Positions 32,192-41,266 of a DNA stretch of 64,000 nt are shown piece after piece; the stretch's first letter is position 1; each line of letters begins with the position of its first letter. The notes under the pieces were generated by a model. The model was not told the DNA's origin. It searched no databases and was given only the letters and a program-made list of their open reading frames with translations. Source of the DNA: Bacteroidota bacterium. Lineage in GTDB: Bacteria > Bacteroidota > Ignavibacteria > Ignavibacteriales > Ignavibacteriaceae. Location of the stretch: assembly GCA_020161395.1 (NCBI GenBank), contig JAIUOE010000002.1:558001-622000 (forward strand), in the 5' to 3' direction. The position numbers and the translations under genes were made by a program.

Positions 32192-34624
32192 TTATTTCAA
32201 CAAAGCCATTTTAACCGTAAGTGATTTTGTTCTGCCGGAAATTGTATTTGTACACAAAACCTGACAGAAGTAGATACCTGAGGATTCAGTTCCCATATCG
32301 ATATCCTGTTCAAAATATCCATGACTTAGAACCCCTCTATCAATCTCCTTTACCTGTTCCCCCATAGCGTTAAAAACTTTTATCACAACTCTATTTTCTT
32401 CGGGAAGTGAAAAAGTCACCTTTGTTGAAGGATTGAAAGGATTGGGATAGTTCTGTTGAATTGAATAATTCTCAGGTACTTCGCCCAGCAATACTTCCAC
32501 TTCGTTTGAATACTCGAATTCTCCGTTATAATCGATCTGCTTGAGGCGGTAGTATAGTATTGCAGGGGCTTTTGCTTCAAGGTCGTCGTAACCGTAGTAT
32601 ATTCTCCTGGTGGAAGTCCCTGATCCCTTTGAGAAAGCAATGGTTTTCCAGTCACCGTGTTTGTAGCGTCTTTCTATCTCGAAGCCCATGTTGTTAGTTT
32701 CCGTTTCGGTAGTCCATTGAAGAACCACTTTGTTTCCGAAGGGGAGTGCTGAGAACAATGAGAGTTCAACAGGTGTGTTGCCGCGATTGCGGGTTTTCCA
32801 TATTCCGGATCCCCCGGAATTAACTATTGTGACACCAATTCCTTCAAATAAATCATACATTCCCATCCATGAAAATTTGCTACTGTATGTAGGCAGGAAT
32901 TCGTTTACTTTCCATGAAAAACCACCATCATAAGTTGAGTATAGTTTATTCGCACTAACATATATGCTAAGTGAATCTTTCATATAGATATAGGATGCGT
33001 TTCCCATTCCCGGGATGATCATTTCCGAAATCGTCGCTCCACCATCAGTCGTTTTATAAATTTTACTGTTAGAGGTTAAGAAGATGCCAAAATTGCTGTT
33101 AATGAAAATAATTTCCCGAAGGGTTAAACCAAGATTACTGAGTTGGTTCCAGGTGTTTCCATTGTCTGTGGTTTTATAAAGTGAAACATTACAAGCATAG
33201 CCTGTTCCGTCTTCGAACATGATTACTTGATCGAAGTTAATTCCTGAGACTGACAACTTTGTGTCCCAATTCCTGCCACCGTTGCTACTTGATAAGATAG
33301 TGGTTCCAGATGCAATCCAAATGGTGCCGTCTTCTTGGGTATATATATCATAGATCTTGCCTGTTGGTGATTGTGAAATAGAGTCCATAGTCAAGCAAAG
33401 GTCTTCAGATTTAGAGAAGACTTTATCGCTTGCCAGATAGACAAGGGAATCATTCACTATACTAATTTTTGTAGCTTTTCCTTTTTGCATTCTTCTTGTA
33501 GCCCAGTGGTTCCCCCGATCGGTAGAAACATAAAGCCTGCCACCTTCATCAGCAATTATCGCATAACCCGGATCGAGAAATGCAGCAGCAGAGTGATTTA
33601 AAAAAGTCTGGTCTGTTCTTATTTCCCATGGTTCATTGATATTGGGTCGGGAAACGACAAAAAATATTCCGTCTCCGAGGAGATAAACGCGATTTTCAAA
33701 AATTTTGACATCTTTATATTGGCGAGATACTCCAATCTGCGACACATATCGCCATGTAACTCCGGTATCTGTAGTATATAATAGTCCGTTTTCAAATTGG
33801 AGTGGGGATATCGCGGTTGTGGGATTTAAAAATTTAATATTAAAGGGAATACCTGCGAAATTAACCTCACCTAAGTCTTTGAATATCCATGTCAAACCTT
33901 TGTTTGTAGATGTTGCTAACAATGGGGCATAGTAACCTCGCCAAGGGTCAACCTGAATCCAACGGGCACTTCCCACAACCAGGATACTATCACTAATCTC
34001 ATCAATGGTTTTTGGGGAAGAGATTCCTGGCGGATTGTACATGTTGGTGAAGGTAATTCCTCCGTCAGTTGTGTGGTGGATTTCTCCAGATGCAAAAACC
34101 CATCCTTTAAGAGCGTTTTTAAAATAAAACCCGCCAATATACTGCGCCGAGTCAATAATATTCCAGTTCACTCCCTTGTCAGTGGATTTTAACAAATAAT
34201 AAACCACAGCTTCACCAGAACCATAATCGACAGAAGCATAAACGGTTGTGCTGCTGAGGAATTGGATTTTCTTCAAGTTTTGATATTGGGTTGGGAGATT
34301 GATCTCCGACCATGTTGACCCACCATCAGATGTAAAAATCATTTGGCTCGGGGAATTCAATCTGGCGAAAATATGGTTCTCATCAATAACAGATGCTTCT
34401 GTCAAACTGAGTATAGGGATTTGTTGTGCACGAAACCAGTTTCTACCCCCATCAGTGGTTTTTATTACATAACAACTATCGTCCGAATAGGCTGCAGTAA
34501 AATTCAATGAGTCGGTCATATGGAAGCTAAATACCTGCCCACTCAATGGGTTGATTACTACACTTTCCCACTGCGAAAGCAGCAGGGAATTTATAGCAAA
34601 CAGAAAAATTATCAATCGTTTCAT
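32192..34624 (-). CDS. T9SS-secreted YCF48/BNR propeller protein, paralogue B
   Basis: 810 residues. The signal peptide is MKRLIIFLFAINSLLLSQ. Asp-box units (KTTDGGRNW, TSDGGSTW, HTTDGGITF, KTTDNGNTW) fill residues about 20-610. PVELSLFSALPFGNKVVLQW leads into the fibronectin-like segment and the T9SS sorting domain (QQNYPNPFNPST) that ends SLTVKMALLK. The protein differs from paralogue A over the propeller but matches it almost residue for residue over the last 200. GAAGGA about nine bases before the ATG serves as Shine-Dalgarno. It ends eight bases past a CACAGAG repeat cluster and starts 26 bp after the stop of paralogue C, so B and C are probably co-transcribed. Confidence 0.88.
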   Translation of the reverse strand: MKRLIIFLFAINSLLLSQWESVVINPLSGQVFSFHMTDSLNFTAAYSDDSCYVIKTTDGGRNWFRAQQIPILSLTEASVIDENHIFARLNSPSQMIFTSDGGSTWSEINLPTQYQNLKKIQFLSSTTVYASVDYGSGEAVVYYLLKSTDKGVNWNIIDSAQYIGGFYFKNALKGWVFASGEIHHTTDGGITFTNMYNPPGISSPKTIDEISDSILVVGSARWIQVDPWRGYYAPLLATSTNKGLTWIFKDLGEVNFAGIPFNIKFLNPTTAISPLQFENGLLYTTDTGVTWRYVSQIGVSRQYKDVKIFENRVYLLGDGIFFVVSRPNINEPWEIRTDQTFLNHSAAAFLDPGYAIIADEGGRLYVSTDRGNHWATRRMQKGKATKISIVNDSLVYLASDKVFSKSEDLCLTMDSISQSPTGKIYDIYTQEDGTIWIASGTTILSSSNGGRNWDTKLSVSGINFDQVIMFEDGTGYACNVSLYKTTDNGNTWNQLSNLGLTLREIIFINSNFGIFLTSNSKIYKTTDGGATISEMIIPGMGNASYIYMKDSLSIYVSANKLYSTYDGGFSWKVNEFLPTYSSKFSWMGMYDLFEGIGVTIVNSGGSGIWKTRNRGNTPVELSLFSALPFGNKVVLQWTTETETNNMGFEIERRYKHGDWKTIAFSKGSGTSTRRIYYGYDDLEAKAPAILYYRLKQIDYNGEFEYSNEVEVLLGEVPENYSIQQNYPNPFNPSTKVTFSLPEENRVVIKVFNAMGEQVKEIDRGVLSHGYFEQDIDMGTESSGIYFCQVLCTNTISGRTKSLTVKMALLK

Positions 34625-34650: not shown

Positions 34651-37071
34651 TTATTTCATCAAAACCATCTTAACCGTAAGCGATTTTGTCCTGCCGGAAA
34701 TTGTATTTGTGCAAAGCACCTGACAGAAATACATACCCGAGGATTCGTTACCCATCTCAAAATCCTGTTCATAATATCCATGACTGAGAACCCCTCTATC
34801 AATCTCTTTTACCAGTTCTCCCATCGCGTTATATACCCTGATAACAACCTCGTTCTCCTCGGGAAGTGAGAATGAAACTTTCGTATTTGGGTTGAACGGG
34901 TTCGGGTAGTTCTGGTTGATAGAGTAATTTTCAGGTACCTCGCCGAGGATCACCTCAACTTCACTGGAGTAGGAGAATCTGCCGTCATAATCGATCTGCT
35001 TGAGGCGGTAGTAGAGTATCGCCGGGGCTTTTGCTTCATAATCATCATATCCGTAGAAAATCTTACGGGTGGAAGTACCGGACCCTTTTGAGAAAGCAAT
35101 GGTTTTCCAGTCACCGTGTTTGTAGCGTCTTTCAATCTCGAAGCCCATGTTGTTGGTTTCGGTTTCGGTAATCCACTGAAGTGCAACTTTGTTTCCGGAT
35201 TGTGTTGCCGTGAACGCAGAGAGTTCGACGGGGGTGTTGCCGCGGTTGGAGGTTTTCCATATACTGCCGTATCGTGTGACAGCTATCCCTTCAAAGCGAT
35301 TGTACATTTTCATGAAATCGATTTCCGGGGGAGTCGATTGAGTTACAAATTCATTTACTCTCCACCACTTCCCGCCATCCTCAGTTGAATAAAACCTGTT
35401 CGCACTCAAAAAGTGATTTAGCGAATCACTACAATGAATTTTATACAAATTGGAAACTCCCGGGACAAAAACCTGTTCGAATGATATCCCGCCATTTTGC
35501 GTTCGGTATAGGTAGTTATTGTCAACGATAGCATAGCCATTTTCACTGTCATAAAATTCGATATCTGTGATATTGAGTGGTGACAAAACGACCTCATTCC
35601 AGGTGTTTCCGAAGTCCGTGGTTTTAAGCAGTTTGCCGTTACAGGTGTAACCCGTACCATGTTCAAAAAACTCCAGCTCTTTGAAAATTTCTGACGAAGA
35701 CAGTTTTGTGGTCCAGGTATGACCGTGATCACTGCTCATATTGAGAGTTTTTCCCGAGGAAATCCAAATATGCCCGTTTCCGGTCGGCAGAATATCCCGT
35801 ATAAATGCTGAGGGGAAATACGCGATGGAATCAAATGTCGCCCCCATATCATCCGACCGAAAAATTGTATTTAAAGTGGTCACATAAATTATCGAATCCT
35901 TATCAATGGCAGAGTTTAACAGAGACCCGTTGTACAACCATTTTGTGTCCCAGTTTATCCCCCGGTTACCTGAGATGTATATCTTGCCCTCTCTGGTGGG
36001 CATCACGATAATGCCCGGATCAAGGAACGAGGCAGCCGAAGGCGCATGGTTGAACTGTTCGGTCCTCATTGCCCAAGGTTGTGCAACATCTTCACCTGAT
36101 ACCACAAAAGATATTCCCAGACCTGCAGCATACAACCTGTTATGCACTAATTTGATATCTGTGTATTTCAGGAGTGCTTCGGGCCGGTTTCCAAAACTCC
36201 AGGTAAGCCCAAAGTCTTTTGTAATAATCAATCCGGGTTCATCTTTTATTGTGGTGACAGCAGTTGTTTCATTGATGAATTGAATATTATCCGGTTTTCC
36301 CCGGAGAAAATCAGAGTCAAAATCTCTTAGTCTCCAAGTCGAACCTCTGTCTGTTGAAATGGCGATCTGAGGTGCCTGATATGTCGACACAGGGGGTACA
36401 AAAATCTCTCTGACTCCACCGACTATAATAATGCTGTCATTGATCTGACCGGCAGTGTTTGCGCTCAACATTCCCGGCGGGTTAACGATGATCGAAAAGG
36501 TGCTTCCGGCATTTGTGGTACGAAAAATGTGCCCGCCAAAAATCCAACCCGATTGTGTATTTTCGAAGTGGAAGTTGTTTACAGGATTGATAAGCGAATC
36601 CATAATTTCCCAGGAAGTTCCTCCGTCACCGGTCTTTATCATCATCTGTTTTGTTGCGACACCACTGTTATATGATACAGAAGCATATCCGGTCAAAGGA
36701 TTAATAAATTGAAACTTATGAATTCTGAAGTAACGCTGCGGTATCTGAACAGTCGTCCATGATGATCCACCATTGGTCGATTTTAGAAGTGTAAGCAAAT
36801 CAGACTTCAACACAAAAATATTATTCTGATCGGCGATTGCTGCATAGGCAGGTGAATTGGCAGGGATTCCGTAACTTTTTGTCCATTCTCTTCCCCCGTC
36901 ACTGCTTTTGATCACAAATGATGAATCACCTGAATAAACCGCCGTTATGTTAAGTGTATCAGTCATATGGAAACAATGGATCGTGCCGGAAAAAGGGTGT
37001 ATCTTCACCTGAGTCCACTGAGCGTATGAACAAAAATTTAATACCAGTATAATAATCTTTAAATACTTCAT
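34651..37071 (-). CDS. T9SS-secreted YCF48/BNR propeller protein, paralogue C
   Basis: 806 residues from ATG 37071 (an in-frame ATG at 37122 would add 17 residues that spoil the signal peptide). The signal peptide is MKYLKIIILVLNFCSYAQ. Asp-box units (KSSDGGREW, KSTNGGSSW, KTGDGGTSW, RTTNAGSTF) run to about residue 600. PVELSAFTATQSGNKVALQW, a fibronectin-like segment and a T9SS tail (NQNYPNPFNPNT, ending SLTVKMVLMK) follow. AAGGGAATATTATT precedes the ATG, like paralogue A. The first gene of the minus-strand paralogue run; its upstream gap to ftsZ holds a bulged 15-bp hairpin and one 19-bp repeat copy. Ligand and role unknown. Confidence 0.88.
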   Translation of the reverse strand: MKYLKIIILVLNFCSYAQWTQVKIHPFSGTIHCFHMTDTLNITAVYSGDSSFVIKSSDGGREWTKSYGIPANSPAYAAIADQNNIFVLKSDLLTLLKSTNGGSSWTTVQIPQRYFRIHKFQFINPLTGYASVSYNSGVATKQMMIKTGDGGTSWEIMDSLINPVNNFHFENTQSGWIFGGHIFRTTNAGSTFSIIVNPPGMLSANTAGQINDSIIIVGGVREIFVPPVSTYQAPQIAISTDRGSTWRLRDFDSDFLRGKPDNIQFINETTAVTTIKDEPGLIITKDFGLTWSFGNRPEALLKYTDIKLVHNRLYAAGLGISFVVSGEDVAQPWAMRTEQFNHAPSAASFLDPGIIVMPTREGKIYISGNRGINWDTKWLYNGSLLNSAIDKDSIIYVTTLNTIFRSDDMGATFDSIAYFPSAFIRDILPTGNGHIWISSGKTLNMSSDHGHTWTTKLSSSEIFKELEFFEHGTGYTCNGKLLKTTDFGNTWNEVVLSPLNITDIEFYDSENGYAIVDNNYLYRTQNGGISFEQVFVPGVSNLYKIHCSDSLNHFLSANRFYSTEDGGKWWRVNEFVTQSTPPEIDFMKMYNRFEGIAVTRYGSIWKTSNRGNTPVELSAFTATQSGNKVALQWITETETNNMGFEIERRYKHGDWKTIAFSKGSGTSTRKIFYGYDDYEAKAPAILYYRLKQIDYDGRFSYSSEVEVILGEVPENYSINQNYPNPFNPNTKVSFSLPEENEVVIRVYNAMGELVKEIDRGVLSHGYYEQDFEMGNESSGMYFCQVLCTNTISGRTKSLTVKMVLMK

Positions 37072-37212
37072 AATAATATTCCCTTTTAGATTCAGAAAAA
37101 TACAAAAAAATGTAATACACAAGCAATCGTTATTTTTTGTTTTTCGAAAATGAATGTTGGAGCAAGGAGGTAAGGATTCAAACTTTAACTCCCGTCGGTT
37201 GTATGAAGGGAA

Positions 37213-37322: not shown

Positions 37323-38627
37323 TCAGTCCATTATATTACGCAGAAATGCAGCACTTCTGTCTTCTTCTTCCTCTTTCGGTACTGAATTCGGATTGCTCTT
37401 GAACTTAAGTTCATTGATATTCTCTTTTCGTGTTTCAGAGAAACTGAAGGTTTTCTGCTCGGGAACACCTGTTGTAACACCCAGTCTGCCGTCACGAAGT
37501 ATCGCAGGAATATTGATATCATCACTGTTGATTTGAACCTGTGGCATCTGTGGCGCCCTTGAAGTCTCCACCTGTGGGACAACAGGGGCTGCGGGCATTG
37601 CAACCACGGGGTTCTGAACCGCTGTACGGATCATCTCGGGATTGCTGGTCGGTTTTGCAACTGCTGAATCAAATCCTGTGGCAATTACTGTAAATGAAAC
37701 ATAATCCTTCATCTCTTCTTTTTCCACCAGCCCAAAAATTACATTAACATCTTCGCCTGTGGCTTCAAGTATGGTGGCCATCCCCTCTTCCACTTCGTGC
37801 ATGGTCAAATTCGAGGATGCAGTGATATTTACAAGCATCGCCTTGGCACCTCTGATATCCATGCCTTCGAGAAGCGGACTTGAAATTGCTTTCTGTGCAG
37901 CTTCTATTGCACGGTTATCACCCGTGGCGGTTCCGGTACCCATAAGAGCCATTCCGCTCGATTCCATAACGGTCTTTACATCTGCAAAGTCGACATTTAT
38001 CTTTCCTTCGAAAGTGATGATCTCTGCGATTCCTTTTGTCGCTTCGTACAAAATTTCGTTTGGCTTGTCATAGCCTGAAAAAGCGGGAAGATTTTTATCC
38101 AGCAGCTCGTGCAGCTTTGAGTTTTTGATGATGATCAAACTGTCAACATGCTTCTTCAATTCCACCAAACCCGACTCGGCATTTTTCTTTCTGGTCGGTC
38201 CTTCGTAGTTGAATGGTTTGGTAACAATCGAAACAACAAGTGCACCGTTTTGCTTCGCTATCTGAGCCACGATCGGTGCAGCACCCGTTCCGGTGCCACC
38301 GCCCATTCCTGCCGTAATGAAAACCATGTTGGCTCCGACGAGTGCCTCCTCAATCCGGGCACGGTCTTCCTCAGCGGCAGCTTTCCCGACTTCAGGATTC
38401 GCTCCGGCGCCAAGACCTTTGGTGATCTTGGTTCCAACAGTTATCTTCTTTGTGGCAAGATTTGAGTCAAGGCTCTGAGCATCCGTGTTGATGGCGATGA
38501 ACTCGACGCCTGAAATTCCCTGTTTGATCATGGAATTTATTGCGTTGCATCCTCCACCACCGACACCGACTACTTTAAGATTGGCGCGCAGAACTGGTAC
38601 TTGTGTTTCTAATGTTGCAAATGGCAT
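37323..38627 (-). CDS. ftsZ: Cell division protein FtsZ
   Basis: 434 residues. It carries the GTP-binding elements of bacterial tubulin: KVVGVGGGGCNA near the N-terminus, FIAINTDAQSL (43-53), the signature loop GGGTGTG (109-115) and the catalytic T7 loop with NVDFADV. A Pro/Val-rich linker (about 320-415) follows. The tail DRSAAFLRNIMD is the conserved C-terminal peptide that binds FtsA and other partners. FtsZ polymerises at mid-cell as the division ring. GGAGGT lies just before the ATG. Last gene of the dcw cluster, 12 bp after the FtsZ-like gene on the same strand. Confidence 0.97.
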   Translation of the reverse strand: MPFATLETQVPVLRANLKVVGVGGGGCNAINSMIKQGISGVEFIAINTDAQSLDSNLATKKITVGTKITKGLGAGANPEVGKAAAEEDRARIEEALVGANMVFITAGMGGGTGTGAAPIVAQIAKQNGALVVSIVTKPFNYEGPTRKKNAESGLVELKKHVDSLIIIKNSKLHELLDKNLPAFSGYDKPNEILYEATKGIAEIITFEGKINVDFADVKTVMESSGMALMGTGTATGDNRAIEAAQKAISSPLLEGMDIRGAKAMLVNITASSNLTMHEVEEGMATILEATGEDVNVIFGLVEKEEMKDYVSFTVIATGFDSAVAKPTSNPEMIRTAVQNPVVAMPAAPVVPQVETSRAPQMPQVQINSDDINIPAILRDGRLGVTTGVPEQKTFSFSETRKENINELKFKSNPNSVPKEEEEDRSAAFLRNIMD

Positions 38628-38639
38628 AATACCTCCGTA

Positions 38640-39218
38640 CTATAAGTTTTTTAATTCAGCCTGTTTAAAACTTTTGACTAAAGAATTGATAACACTCATC
38701 ATCAATTCATTTTTTGACTTTTCTTCATTAGCTTTCAGCAAAAAATCACCGTTGTTTTTCTCGAGCATATAAAGTCTATACCCGTTTTTAAGAAAGAATT
38801 CGAGATTCTCTGTTGTTACTTTGTCTTCATGGCTCTGCAGTTTCACTGCGATAAAACTTGGGTCTGTTCCTGTCTCCTCTGATGCCCTTACCAGCATCGG
38901 GGTGACAGATAATGCAAGGGGATCTTCTGCGGTAAACAGAACAATCATCGAAGCAGATTCACCCAACAAAAAGAGGATGGCTTTCTGCAGGTTATCAAAT
39001 TCCTTCTGATTCAGAAAGAGTATCGAATCATCAACATAAAAGTCTCTGATTCCCTCATTCACAATAAGTTTCTTCCCGGCACTGTACTTCTTCAATTCAT
39101 TTTCATCGGTTCCGACAAAAACGAACTTTACTTTGTCAAGAAATTTTTCACTGACGCTCTCGAGATGATCCGAGAGGAGCTTTCCAATTACAAAGATTAC
39201 CGGTTGTTTAGAGATCAT
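38640..39218 (-). CDS. Putative degenerate FtsZ-like protein between ftsA and ftsZ
   Basis: 192 residues from ATG 39218, overlapping the ftsA stop by 11 bp. Not a family I can name. Aligned by eye with the adjacent FtsZ, the same elements occur in the same order. VIFVIG matches the first strand. KVKFVFVGTDENEL (29-42) matches VEFIAINTDAQSL, with the shared TD. SMIVLFTA (90-97) and PMLVRASEETG match the strand and helix that flank the FtsZ signature loop. FIAVKL and GYRLYMLEKN match VVSIVTKP and HVDSLIIIKN. The GGGTGTG loop is replaced by EDPLALSV, and the glycine-rich N-terminal loop and the whole C-terminal half with T7 are missing. It would therefore not hydrolyse GTP. It could cap or modulate FtsZ, or be an unrelated Rossmann-like protein. 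Confidence 0.6.
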   Translation of the reverse strand: MISKQPVIFVIGKLLSDHLESVSEKFLDKVKFVFVGTDENELKKYSAGKKLIVNEGIRDFYVDDSILFLNQKEFDNLQKAILFLLGESASMIVLFTAEDPLALSVTPMLVRASEETGTDPSFIAVKLQSHEDKVTTENLEFFLKNGYRLYMLEKNNGDFLLKANEEKSKNELMMSVINSLVKSFKQAELKNL

Positions 39219-40512
39219 CAAACTGACTTTTTATTTGAGAGAGAAAATCTTTGAATTTGCTCCTGCTTTTTGTCTTCGAGTCTTGTTTCACGGGTTTTTC
39301 GGCTTTGTTTCTGGTGAAGAATCCCTTCTTTTTCTTCGGTTCCTCGCCTTCATCGTCCGAAGAAAAATCTTCCTCGATCGGCAAAAGAAGTCCGAGAACA
39401 GATGAATAATCGGGTTTGTTCAGCTTTCCGAATTCTCCCTCGAAATGACTCTCATCAGGAAGCCCTATTCTTGCGGGAGCACCAAAAACCTGCTCCGCCA
39501 GATCGGTTATTCCTTTTAACCATGCTCCACCACCGGTGATTACAATTCCCGCCCTGATCTTGTTCTTTACATCAGCTTTTTCAAGTTCGTTGTTAATCAT
39601 TTTAAAGAGTTCTGCCACTCTGCTTTTTATTATTTGTGTGAGCAGACTTACAGGTATCTTGGTGCTTGGTCTGGGACCCACACCCTTCACTGTGATCAGA
39701 TCGTCTTTTATAATTGCGGACTCGGTCGCATATCCGTAATCCAGTTTCAACAACTCGGCTTCTTCCTCAATAACGCTTAAAAACTCTTTGATATCGAGGG
39801 TAACGCGGTTACCTGCGATGCCAAAAACTCTCGAAAACCGTATCGCATTCCCCTGATAAATAAGTACATCTGTGCATCCCGATCCGATATCGATCATCAG
39901 GATTCCAAGATCCTTTTCCGCAGGTTCGAGTACTGCCGAGGCTGAAGCAAGTGACTGCATCTTCAGGTCAGAGACCTCATATCCGGCTTTTTTAACCGCT
40001 TTTCGAATATTATGGATAGCTCCTGAAGAACCCATCACCACATAATTTGCTGCTTCCAGTCTTGAGCATGCAACTCCCAGCGGTTTGGAAACACTTCCCT
40101 GCCTGTCAACAAAAAATTCTTCGTGAAGAATATGGAGTATCGTCATATCCTTCGAAAATGAAATGCTCTGTATGTCCGATTTCAGGCGGCGAAGATCGTC
40201 AACCGTTACAACCTGCTCATCGTTTGTAATGCTTACATAGTTTCTCGACCTTATACTGCTCAGATTTTCACCGGAAATACCGGTCACTATGTTGGTCGCT
40301 TCCACCTCAGCTTCAGCTTCTGCCGCTTTTATGGCATTTTTAATCGATTCTGCGGTGCTGATGATGTTACTTACTTCTCCTTTGAGCAATCCGTCACAAT
40401 CTGCCTCGCCACTACCAAGAATCTTGAACCTGTTTCGGTCAATTTTTTCGGCTATTACGGCACGAACTTTGGTAGAACCGATGTCAAGCCCTGTTATTAT
40501 CTCGTTTTTCAT
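39208..40512 (-). CDS. ftsA: Cell division protein FtsA
   Basis: 434 residues of the actin/Hsp70 ATPase fold. TGLDIGSTKVRAVIAE is the phosphate-1 motif, ILMIDIGSGCTDVLIY the phosphate-2 motif, and GIVITGGGAWLKGI the adenosine motif. The SHS2/1C domain lies between the first two. The C-terminus (KFKDFLSQIKSQFDDL) is the amphipathic helix that tethers FtsA, and through it FtsZ, to the membrane. A charged linker (about 375-415) precedes it. The gene overlaps ftsQ by 29 bp upstream and the FtsZ-like gene downstream, so translation is coupled. Confidence 0.96.
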   Translation of the reverse strand: MKNEIITGLDIGSTKVRAVIAEKIDRNRFKILGSGEADCDGLLKGEVSNIISTAESIKNAIKAAEAEAEVEATNIVTGISGENLSSIRSRNYVSITNDEQVVTVDDLRRLKSDIQSISFSKDMTILHILHEEFFVDRQGSVSKPLGVACSRLEAANYVVMGSSGAIHNIRKAVKKAGYEVSDLKMQSLASASAVLEPAEKDLGILMIDIGSGCTDVLIYQGNAIRFSRVFGIAGNRVTLDIKEFLSVIEEEAELLKLDYGYATESAIIKDDLITVKGVGPRPSTKIPVSLLTQIIKSRVAELFKMINNELEKADVKNKIRAGIVITGGGAWLKGITDLAEQVFGAPARIGLPDESHFEGEFGKLNKPDYSSVLGLLLPIEEDFSSDDEGEEPKKKKGFFTRNKAEKPVKQDSKTKSRSKFKDFLSQIKSQFDDL

Positions 40513-41266
40513 CTTTCTTTTCCATTTTCTTCGTCTTGCCCAAAAATATTTTTCCGGAATACCTCAGGTCTATATATTCAATTTCTTTATTAAGGGAGAG
40601 CTGCTCACTCATGTCTCTGATTTGCTTCAGAATCAGAATCTGCTCGGCAACCCCTTTTTTCTTGCAAATGACAGGCGGCTTCATATCGGAAAACACCAGA
40701 ACGATGTCGCCACCCTGTCTTAAATCAATCTCGGAGAGACTTGTAGCCATCGTACCGCCAATTAAACGGCAGGCTTTGGCTATTTTATACCCCGGTAAAA
40801 TAGTGGAATCCGGAAATATCCTGAAATAACCGGCTTTATTCACTTTCGTATTCCGAATTACAGGCCAGTCAAAGTTTTTTAACTCGCTCATCAAAGGGAG
40901 CAATTCAAGCTCTTTTGAGATGAGCATCAGTTTATCACCGGAATAAACAGACAGAACAATCTCTTTTTCAACAACTGTTATCTTTACAATCCCCTCTTCT
41001 CCAAGCTGCATCTCCACACTTTTTAAATACGGGTGGTTCAGCAGTCTGTCGTAAAGGACATTAAGCGGTGGAAATTCACCCTTTTCAGGTGACGATTTTG
41101 TAAACCTGATATAATCTTCAGGTGTGAGCATTGATGCTCCCGTCAACTGATACCCCGTAATCTTCTGTTCTATCTCCTTCTTCATAAAGAGCCCCGGCAG
41201 AGCCGTTGCTCCGGCTGCCAGAATGACAAGAAGAATGAGTGCGGGGATAATCCTGCTTTTTTTCAT
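40484..41266 (-). CDS. ftsQ: Cell division protein FtsQ/DivIB
   Basis: 260 residues, bitopic: a short cytoplasmic N-terminus, one transmembrane helix (about 7-27), then a POTRA domain (ITGYQLTGASMLTPEDYI, followed by HPYLKSVEMQLGEEGIVKITVVEKE) and a beta domain. Sequence conservation of FtsQ is low, so the call leans on this layout and on position between murC and ftsA. FtsQ links cytoplasmic ring assembly with the septal synthase FtsWI through FtsB/FtsL. A highly charged tail (KKMEKKDEKRDNN) overlaps the ftsA start. Confidence 0.88.
   Translation of the reverse strand: MKKSRIIPALILLVILAAGATALPGLFMKKEIEQKITGYQLTGASMLTPEDYIRFTKSSPEKGEFPPLNVLYDRLLNHPYLKSVEMQLGEEGIVKITVVEKEIVLSVYSGDKLMLISKELELLPLMSELKNFDWPVIRNTKVNKAGYFRIFPDSTILPGYKIAKACRLIGGTMATSLSEIDLRQGGDIVLVFSDMKPPVICKKKGVAEQILILKQIRDMSEQLSLNKEIEYIDLRYSGKIFLGKTKKMEKKDEKRDNNRA

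Follow-up and report, generated by a model that had tools for sequence, protein, structure and literature searches.

A probable FtsZ-derived half-tubulin encoded between ftsA and ftsZ in one genus of Ignavibacteriaceae, and its possible role as a filament cap

INTRODUCTION

The closest known counterparts of the protein considered here are FtsZ itself, its diverged paralogues, and factors that act on its filaments. In an FtsZ filament, the nucleotide face of each subunit contacts the C-terminal domain and T7 loop of its neighbor (PMC8936486), and the longitudinal contact joins T3, T5, H1/H2, and the H6-H7 loop to the neighbor's H8, S9, T7, and H10. The same source argues that the T7-exposing end is the growing end, reports that mutations of the C-terminal/T7 face are toxic and those of the opposite face are not, and gives D46 of Staphylococcus aureus FtsZ as important for assembly (PMC8936486). 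Each of the two domains of FtsZ is reported to fold independently (PMC7327170), which makes a lone N-terminal domain plausible as a protein.

SulA and MciZ bind the C-terminal face of FtsZ, and MinC has been placed there by modeling (PMC11938149, accessible sections). In the chloroplasts of land plants, ARC3 is said to inhibit FtsZ1 assembly and has been proposed to replace MinC; a title cited by the same paper calls it a chimera of prokaryotic FtsZ (PMC8646090, available text). The FtsZl families and archaeal FtsZ paralogues are highly diverged, with some of the archaeal ones lacking functional motifs, and the accessible portion of that account holds no mention that we found of a half-length protein in the ftsA-ftsZ gap (PMC2875224). 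More broadly, we found no description of a protein like the one reported below in the open-licence literature, most subscription papers being outside that scope and some sources being available in part.

RESULTS

Gene X lies between ftsA and ftsZ. The window, i.e., the whole stretch of DNA analyzed, comprises 64,000 nucleotides from a member of the Ignavibacteriaceae. An initial annotation had proposed that a 192-residue open reading frame in its ftsA-ftsZ gap encodes a degenerate FtsZ paralogue. The frame is real, and the minus-strand order of the locus is ftsQ-like position, ftsA, gene X, and ftsZ:

40484-41266, minus strand: the ftsQ-like position, so named from its place preceding ftsA
39208-40512, minus strand: ftsA (Pfam FtsA, 2.9e-34)
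38640-39218, minus strand: gene X, 192 codons from ATG (ORF translation); product very probably a 192-aa FtsZ-derived N-terminal (GTPase-type) domain (fold search, hhalign, dN/dS)
38988-39077, minus strand: X residues 48-77, spanning S3, the T3-equivalent loop, and the start of H3; the most conserved 30-residue stretch (coordinates from residue count)
38904-38930, minus strand: X residues 97-105, AEDPLALSV, at the position of the FtsZ T4 loop GGGTGTG (alignments; coordinates from residue count)
37323-38627, minus strand: ftsZ, encoding a full-length FtsZ (Pfam Tubulin, 3.4e-49)

The start of gene X overlaps the last 11 nt of ftsA, and the gene ends 12 nt before the start of ftsZ. A GGAGG sequence directly precedes the ftsZ start in G000, G003, and G001, and a GGAGG-like site is absent before gene X in all four X-bearing genomes inspected. 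Judging from this arrangement, gene X is probably cotranscribed and translationally coupled with ftsA; since a GGAGG-like site precedes ftsZ but not X, coupled translation is suggested to yield less X than FtsZ. Directly downstream of ftsZ lie two adjacent genes (32192-34624 and 34651-37122). Their products, of 810 and 823 aa, resemble each other and combine YCF48/sortilin-like repeats with a Por_Secre_tail sorting domain.

X is confined to one genus. Among 59 relatives' genomes searched, X occurs in four, which are all four genomes examined of a single genus, and the same four are the only carriers among 80 genomes of the family. The three orthologues are 96, 53, and 48% identical to the window protein. 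X directly follows ftsA in each genome and precedes ftsZ in three; in the fourth (G002), the contig end falls within X, the frame being intact as far as the contig goes. A profile search of 391 genomes of the class brought no further convincing member. Matches in nine class genomes outside the genus (E 0.0008-0.007) are all partial, with internal stops in four, and those in 12 further relatives' genomes (E 0.013-0.78) are short or partial; we take both sets as chance. A broad scan of genome contigs gave zero matches with a single X protein and, with the X alignment, only two members of the same genus, both already known. The viral contigs searched yielded none at E <= 1e-3.

Gap lengths between ftsA and ftsZ were estimated for 175 distinct genomes having both genes: 58 relatives, 34 of 43 further family members, and sets of 16 and 67 other class members. 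Nine of the 80 family genomes, in which ftsZ was not located, fall outside this survey, and in the sets of 34, 16, and 67, ORFs were sought only in gaps of more than 150 nt, as the longest open frame of each. X occupies the gap in three of the 175, and G002, where ftsZ lies beyond the reach of the contig, would be the fourth. Another ORF, Y, occupies it in one genome (G027). Recurrence of the ORF at this place in other Ignavibacteria, a check proposed in the initial annotation, holds only for this genus (4/4) and, as a protein closer to FtsZ, for one further genome. Two side observations came from the survey. Three genomes from three genera (G321, G169, and G174; L168, L223, and L225) have a gene of the 23S_rRNA_IVP family (Pfam PF05635, E at most 1.5e-28) in the gap, pointing to repeated insertion at the same spot. 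One genome (G013; L076, contig G013:C9) has a second ftsA-ftsZ pair, whose FtsZ is 44% identical to that of the window; the pair may be foreign, because the genome is listed with 8% contamination.

The predicted fold is that of the FtsZ GTPase domain. The X protein has zero matches in Pfam and NCBIfam. Looser candidates for membership in a known family, namely TP6A_N (E 0.078, one orthologue) and two PHROGs (0.2 and 0.26), were rejected, and the search for a confident match to an unrelated family returned none above threshold. The tubulin signature loop GGGTG[ST]G is missing; in its place all four orthologues have xDPLxL, and the replacement of GGGTGTG by EDPLALSV in the window protein is as first described. 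The C-terminal half and T7 loop are likewise absent, as the initial annotation had it: FtsZ_C (PF12327) is present in the window FtsZ and not detected in X, which in the predicted model ends one helix past S6.

Structure prediction differed in quality between orthologues. The best AlphaFold model of the window protein scores a pLDDT of 64.8 and a pTM of 0.69, against pLDDT values of 35-43 for the remaining four. Its top Foldseek matches are TubZ and FtsZ (8.0e-4 and 1.0e-3), followed by sugar kinases (1.2e-3), Ran/Ras proteins (from 3.4e-3), and a TIR domain (6.1e-3), and VIA returns ties (CetZ 9.0, FtsZ 8.7, and a TIR domain 8.7). Such closeness of other proteins would be expected if X shared no ancestry with FtsZ and were a generic Rossmann-like protein brought into the gap by chance, and the 23S_rRNA_IVP genes show that unrelated genes do enter this gap. 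Against this, the better model, that of the 53% identical G001 orthologue (pLDDT 78.7, pTM 0.82, all five models at least 63.9), recovers FtsZ-like proteins alone among the 50 matches listed by each program. In Foldseek, the best 50 of 132 matches at E <= 0.001 are all FtsZ or TubZ (top E 8.7e-8); in VIA, the 50 listed are all FtsZ or CetZ, with a best Z of 13.7 to FtsZ 6unx over 150 residues (rmsd 2.8). In the viral library, the first ten matches comprise tubulin-like proteins, PhuZ, FtsZ, a cell division protein, one uncharacterized protein, and four unnamed ones. The elements of the G001 model run E H E h E h H E H E H E E H, which we take to be S1 H1 S2 T2 S3, a short helix, H3 S4 H4 S5 H5 S6, the second strand of a hairpin, and an H7-like helix. 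Strands and helices follow one another as in the FtsZ GTPase domain; a different order, which would have spoken for another fold, was not seen. The models thus assign X the fold of the FtsZ N-terminal domain. X is not FtsZ proper: it is a variant of the tubulin/FtsZ superfamily without the signature loop, T7, or the C-terminal domain. Because the phosphate-binding loop is lost, X is predicted neither to bind or hydrolyze GTP nor to polymerize.

Profile comparison places X on FtsZ in a single register. The hhalign profile of X has four rows (three after the program's own filter), and that of FtsZ about 71 distinct stretches. Compared with FtsZ alone, X residues 11-125 align on FtsZ 22-134 with a P of 0.016, a score attained by two of 200 column shuffles. 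The elements that had been matched to FtsZ by eye fall in the same register in this unsupervised alignment. The score itself is marginal, to that extent favoring the generic Rossmann-like protein; the profile-profile support becomes stronger with Y. Adding Y to the FtsZ side gives a P of 0.0012, and using Y as template lead gives 0.00054, values that are slightly generous because these profiles were made after the first result. Against the two Y-containing profiles, the X profile scores 31.3 and 31.5, and none of 500 shuffles attains either (best 28.0 and 25.9). As controls, 42 other window proteins run singly reach maxima of 23.7 (21 columns) and 23.6 (68 columns). The single X proteins score 27.2, 17.6, 27.6, and 25.5 on one profile and 25.9, 19.3, 28.7, and 24.5 on the other, all four in the same register (offsets 9-11), with the G001 protein (17.6 and 19.3) within the control range. 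The register holds across 119-146 columns with the Y-containing profiles. With Y added, the alignment is free of gaps over X residues 8-126, which makes the claim that the loop at the T4 place is two residues shorter dependent on the alignment chosen. T37-D38 is invariant in the four orthologues and aligns with the TD of the FtsZ NTD motif after S2, the position at which the S. aureus FtsZ aspartate D46 presumably lies.

A second degenerate FtsZ occupies the same gap in the same clade. Y (P0006) is a 253-aa ORF of G027 (L070:1184-1945) lying precisely in the ftsA-ftsZ gap. The protein lacks a Pfam match, aligns with FtsZ in hhalign at a P of 3.8e-8 (residues 3-129), and reads SSSSSVL at the position of the GGGTGTG loop. 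A 45-genome tree built on FtsA plus FtsZ groups G027, G005, and the four X genomes in one clade with 100% ultrafast bootstrap; the branching order within the clade is poorly supported (60%). Attraction is possible in this tree, because branches are long; in the genera g1, g3, g25, g7, and g8, FtsA plus FtsZ branches are far longer than in most of the family. G005 has neither X nor Y, and its ftsA-ftsZ gap measures 42 nt. The simplest story would be one ftsZ duplication in the clade, followed by unequal degradation in X and Y and loss in G005. A second Y was not found among the 80 family and 391 class genomes. At E <= 0.01, 63 of the 80 family genomes match Y; besides Y itself, the matches checked by position or sequence are ftsZ, and one (G074:C167, E 0.006) is something other than ftsZ. 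In the class, 16 of the 391 genomes match at E <= 1e-7, all with ftsA and ftsZ at that place.

Y, plainly a degenerate FtsZ and encoded at the corresponding position within the same clade, supports the descent of X from FtsZ. Together with the 119-146 columns in constant register, which no shuffle matched, and the fold searches with the G001 model, it outweighs the ambiguity of the weaker window model. We therefore reject an unrelated Rossmann-like origin, which we consider very unlikely. The original proposal of a degenerate FtsZ paralogue is supported in both fold and descent by the G001 model, the profiles including Y, and Y itself.

Gene X is under purifying selection. In the G000-G003 comparison, which involves the orthologue 96% identical to the window protein, X has 23 synonymous and seven nonsynonymous differences (dN/dS 0.070), and the corresponding ratios are 0.035 for ftsZ and 0.012 for ftsA. 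X is under purifying selection, less tight than that on ftsA and ftsZ. This bears on whether X might be a decaying ftsZ duplicate, a functionless pseudogene remnant, as its truncation, its missing motifs, and how quickly it has diverged among genus members (48-53% identity to two of the three orthologues) could suggest. The low dN/dS, however, goes with a frame intact in all four genomes (one cut by a contig end) and an orthologue alignment without internal gaps. The selection on the gene leads us to reject decay, which is scarcely credible.

Conservation is concentrated on one side of the model. In residues 48-77, 21 of 30 columns are invariant among the four orthologues (permutation P 0.0014, for a stretch length of our choosing). 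In the loops, 19 of 45 positions are invariant on the nucleotide side and three of 24 on the opposite side (Fisher P 0.015), with loop borders drawn by us from the model and conservation amounting to about three independent sequences. The T5 equivalent has no invariant position among five. The strongest conservation is a motif of X's own in the T3 region, IRDxYxDDS..NQKEFD, unlike the FtsZ sequence there. The denser conservation of the nucleotide side of the model would fit a retained docking face freed of any need for GTP. A motif that differs from FtsZ could also be expected if X, though FtsZ derived, now served FtsA or another divisome protein as an adaptor, nucleator, or chaperone rather than the filament end, and the 11-nt overlap of its start with ftsA would be in keeping with that. 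X is equally a neighbor of ftsZ, however, and the T3 region that bears the motif is the FtsZ docking side; we regard a role of this kind as unlikely, if worth serious consideration.

DISCUSSION

X very probably arose from an ftsZ duplicate that lost its GTP-binding loops and its entire C-terminal half. As to what it does, we infer dose, binding to FtsZ, and capping from geometry and conservation. If FtsZ filaments grow at the end exposing the T7 loop and the C-terminal domain, an incoming FtsZ would dock there, its N-terminal domain making the contact through the nucleotide face. X would retain a version of this docking face, minus the nucleotide, and, having neither C-terminal domain nor T7 loop, would offer nothing to receive the next subunit. 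X should cap filaments, because the docking side is kept and the side for the next subunit is gone; it would thus act as a chain terminator at the growing end. With no GTP at the contact between X and FtsZ, such a cap would not be released by hydrolysis. What counts against capping is that FtsZ contacts normally involve GTP, which X is probably unable to hold. The full account, in which an FtsZ-derived duplicate made at low dose caps the growing end of FtsZ, is therefore offered tentatively, with confidence a little short of even.

The same proposed docking face would also serve if X, as an FtsZ-derived half-tubulin, tied up FtsZ monomers in a 1:1 ratio instead of capping, in the manner of SulA, which binds the C-terminal face and sequesters (PMC11938149, accessible sections). 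Sequestration, however, usually needs high affinity, according to the same sections, and enough protein, and the missing GGAGG-like site of X, set against the one before ftsZ, suggests a lower dose; we consider it improbable. We also dropped the idea that X recently replaced MinC in the genus. A search at E <= 1e-5 detected MinC_C (PF03775) in six of 14 control genomes but in none of 41 relatives from the order, so that it is missing from all the relatives and not lost specifically in the genus.

If capping of FtsZ by X is correct, a natural half-FtsZ encoded beside ftsZ would illustrate how a filament former can yield its own regulator by losing an enzyme site and one interface. FtsZ polarity would then become directly testable, as one filament end alone should respond to a molecule that has nothing but the docking face. 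X would also be a candidate division regulator in bacteria in which MinC was not found (0/41 genomes). That it represents a tubulin-family protein reduced to its N-terminal domain, encoded in the ftsA-ftsZ gap and dedicated to terminating its parent filament independently of nucleotide, is a possibility that we entertain with more doubt than belief.

Compared with known proteins, X resembles the FtsZ N-terminal domain (PF00091) in strand and helix order, in the superposition of its model over about 150 residues, and in the TD after S2, but it differs in having neither GGGTG[ST]G nor a glycine-rich T1, in its distinct T3, and in the lack of a Pfam match. Y is like X in lying between ftsA and ftsZ, in its degenerate T4 loop, and in being shorter than FtsZ; unlike X, it has 253 aa and is recognizable as FtsZ by sequence, and the direct comparison of the two is not significant (hhalign P 0.23). 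ARC3 parallels X in its description as an FtsZ1 assembly inhibitor and FtsZ chimera, and it differs in being eukaryotic and in having extra parts (a MORN domain); its own GTP site is degenerate. The bacterial FtsZ antagonists known to us, such as SulA and MciZ, are not FtsZ derived. The FtsZl families were found, as far as the available text goes, through the GTP-binding loop GGGTG(S/T)G (PMC2875224), the very loop that X lacks. MciZ and SulA act on the C-terminal (T7) polymerization face of FtsZ (PMC11938149), the same face on which X is proposed to act.
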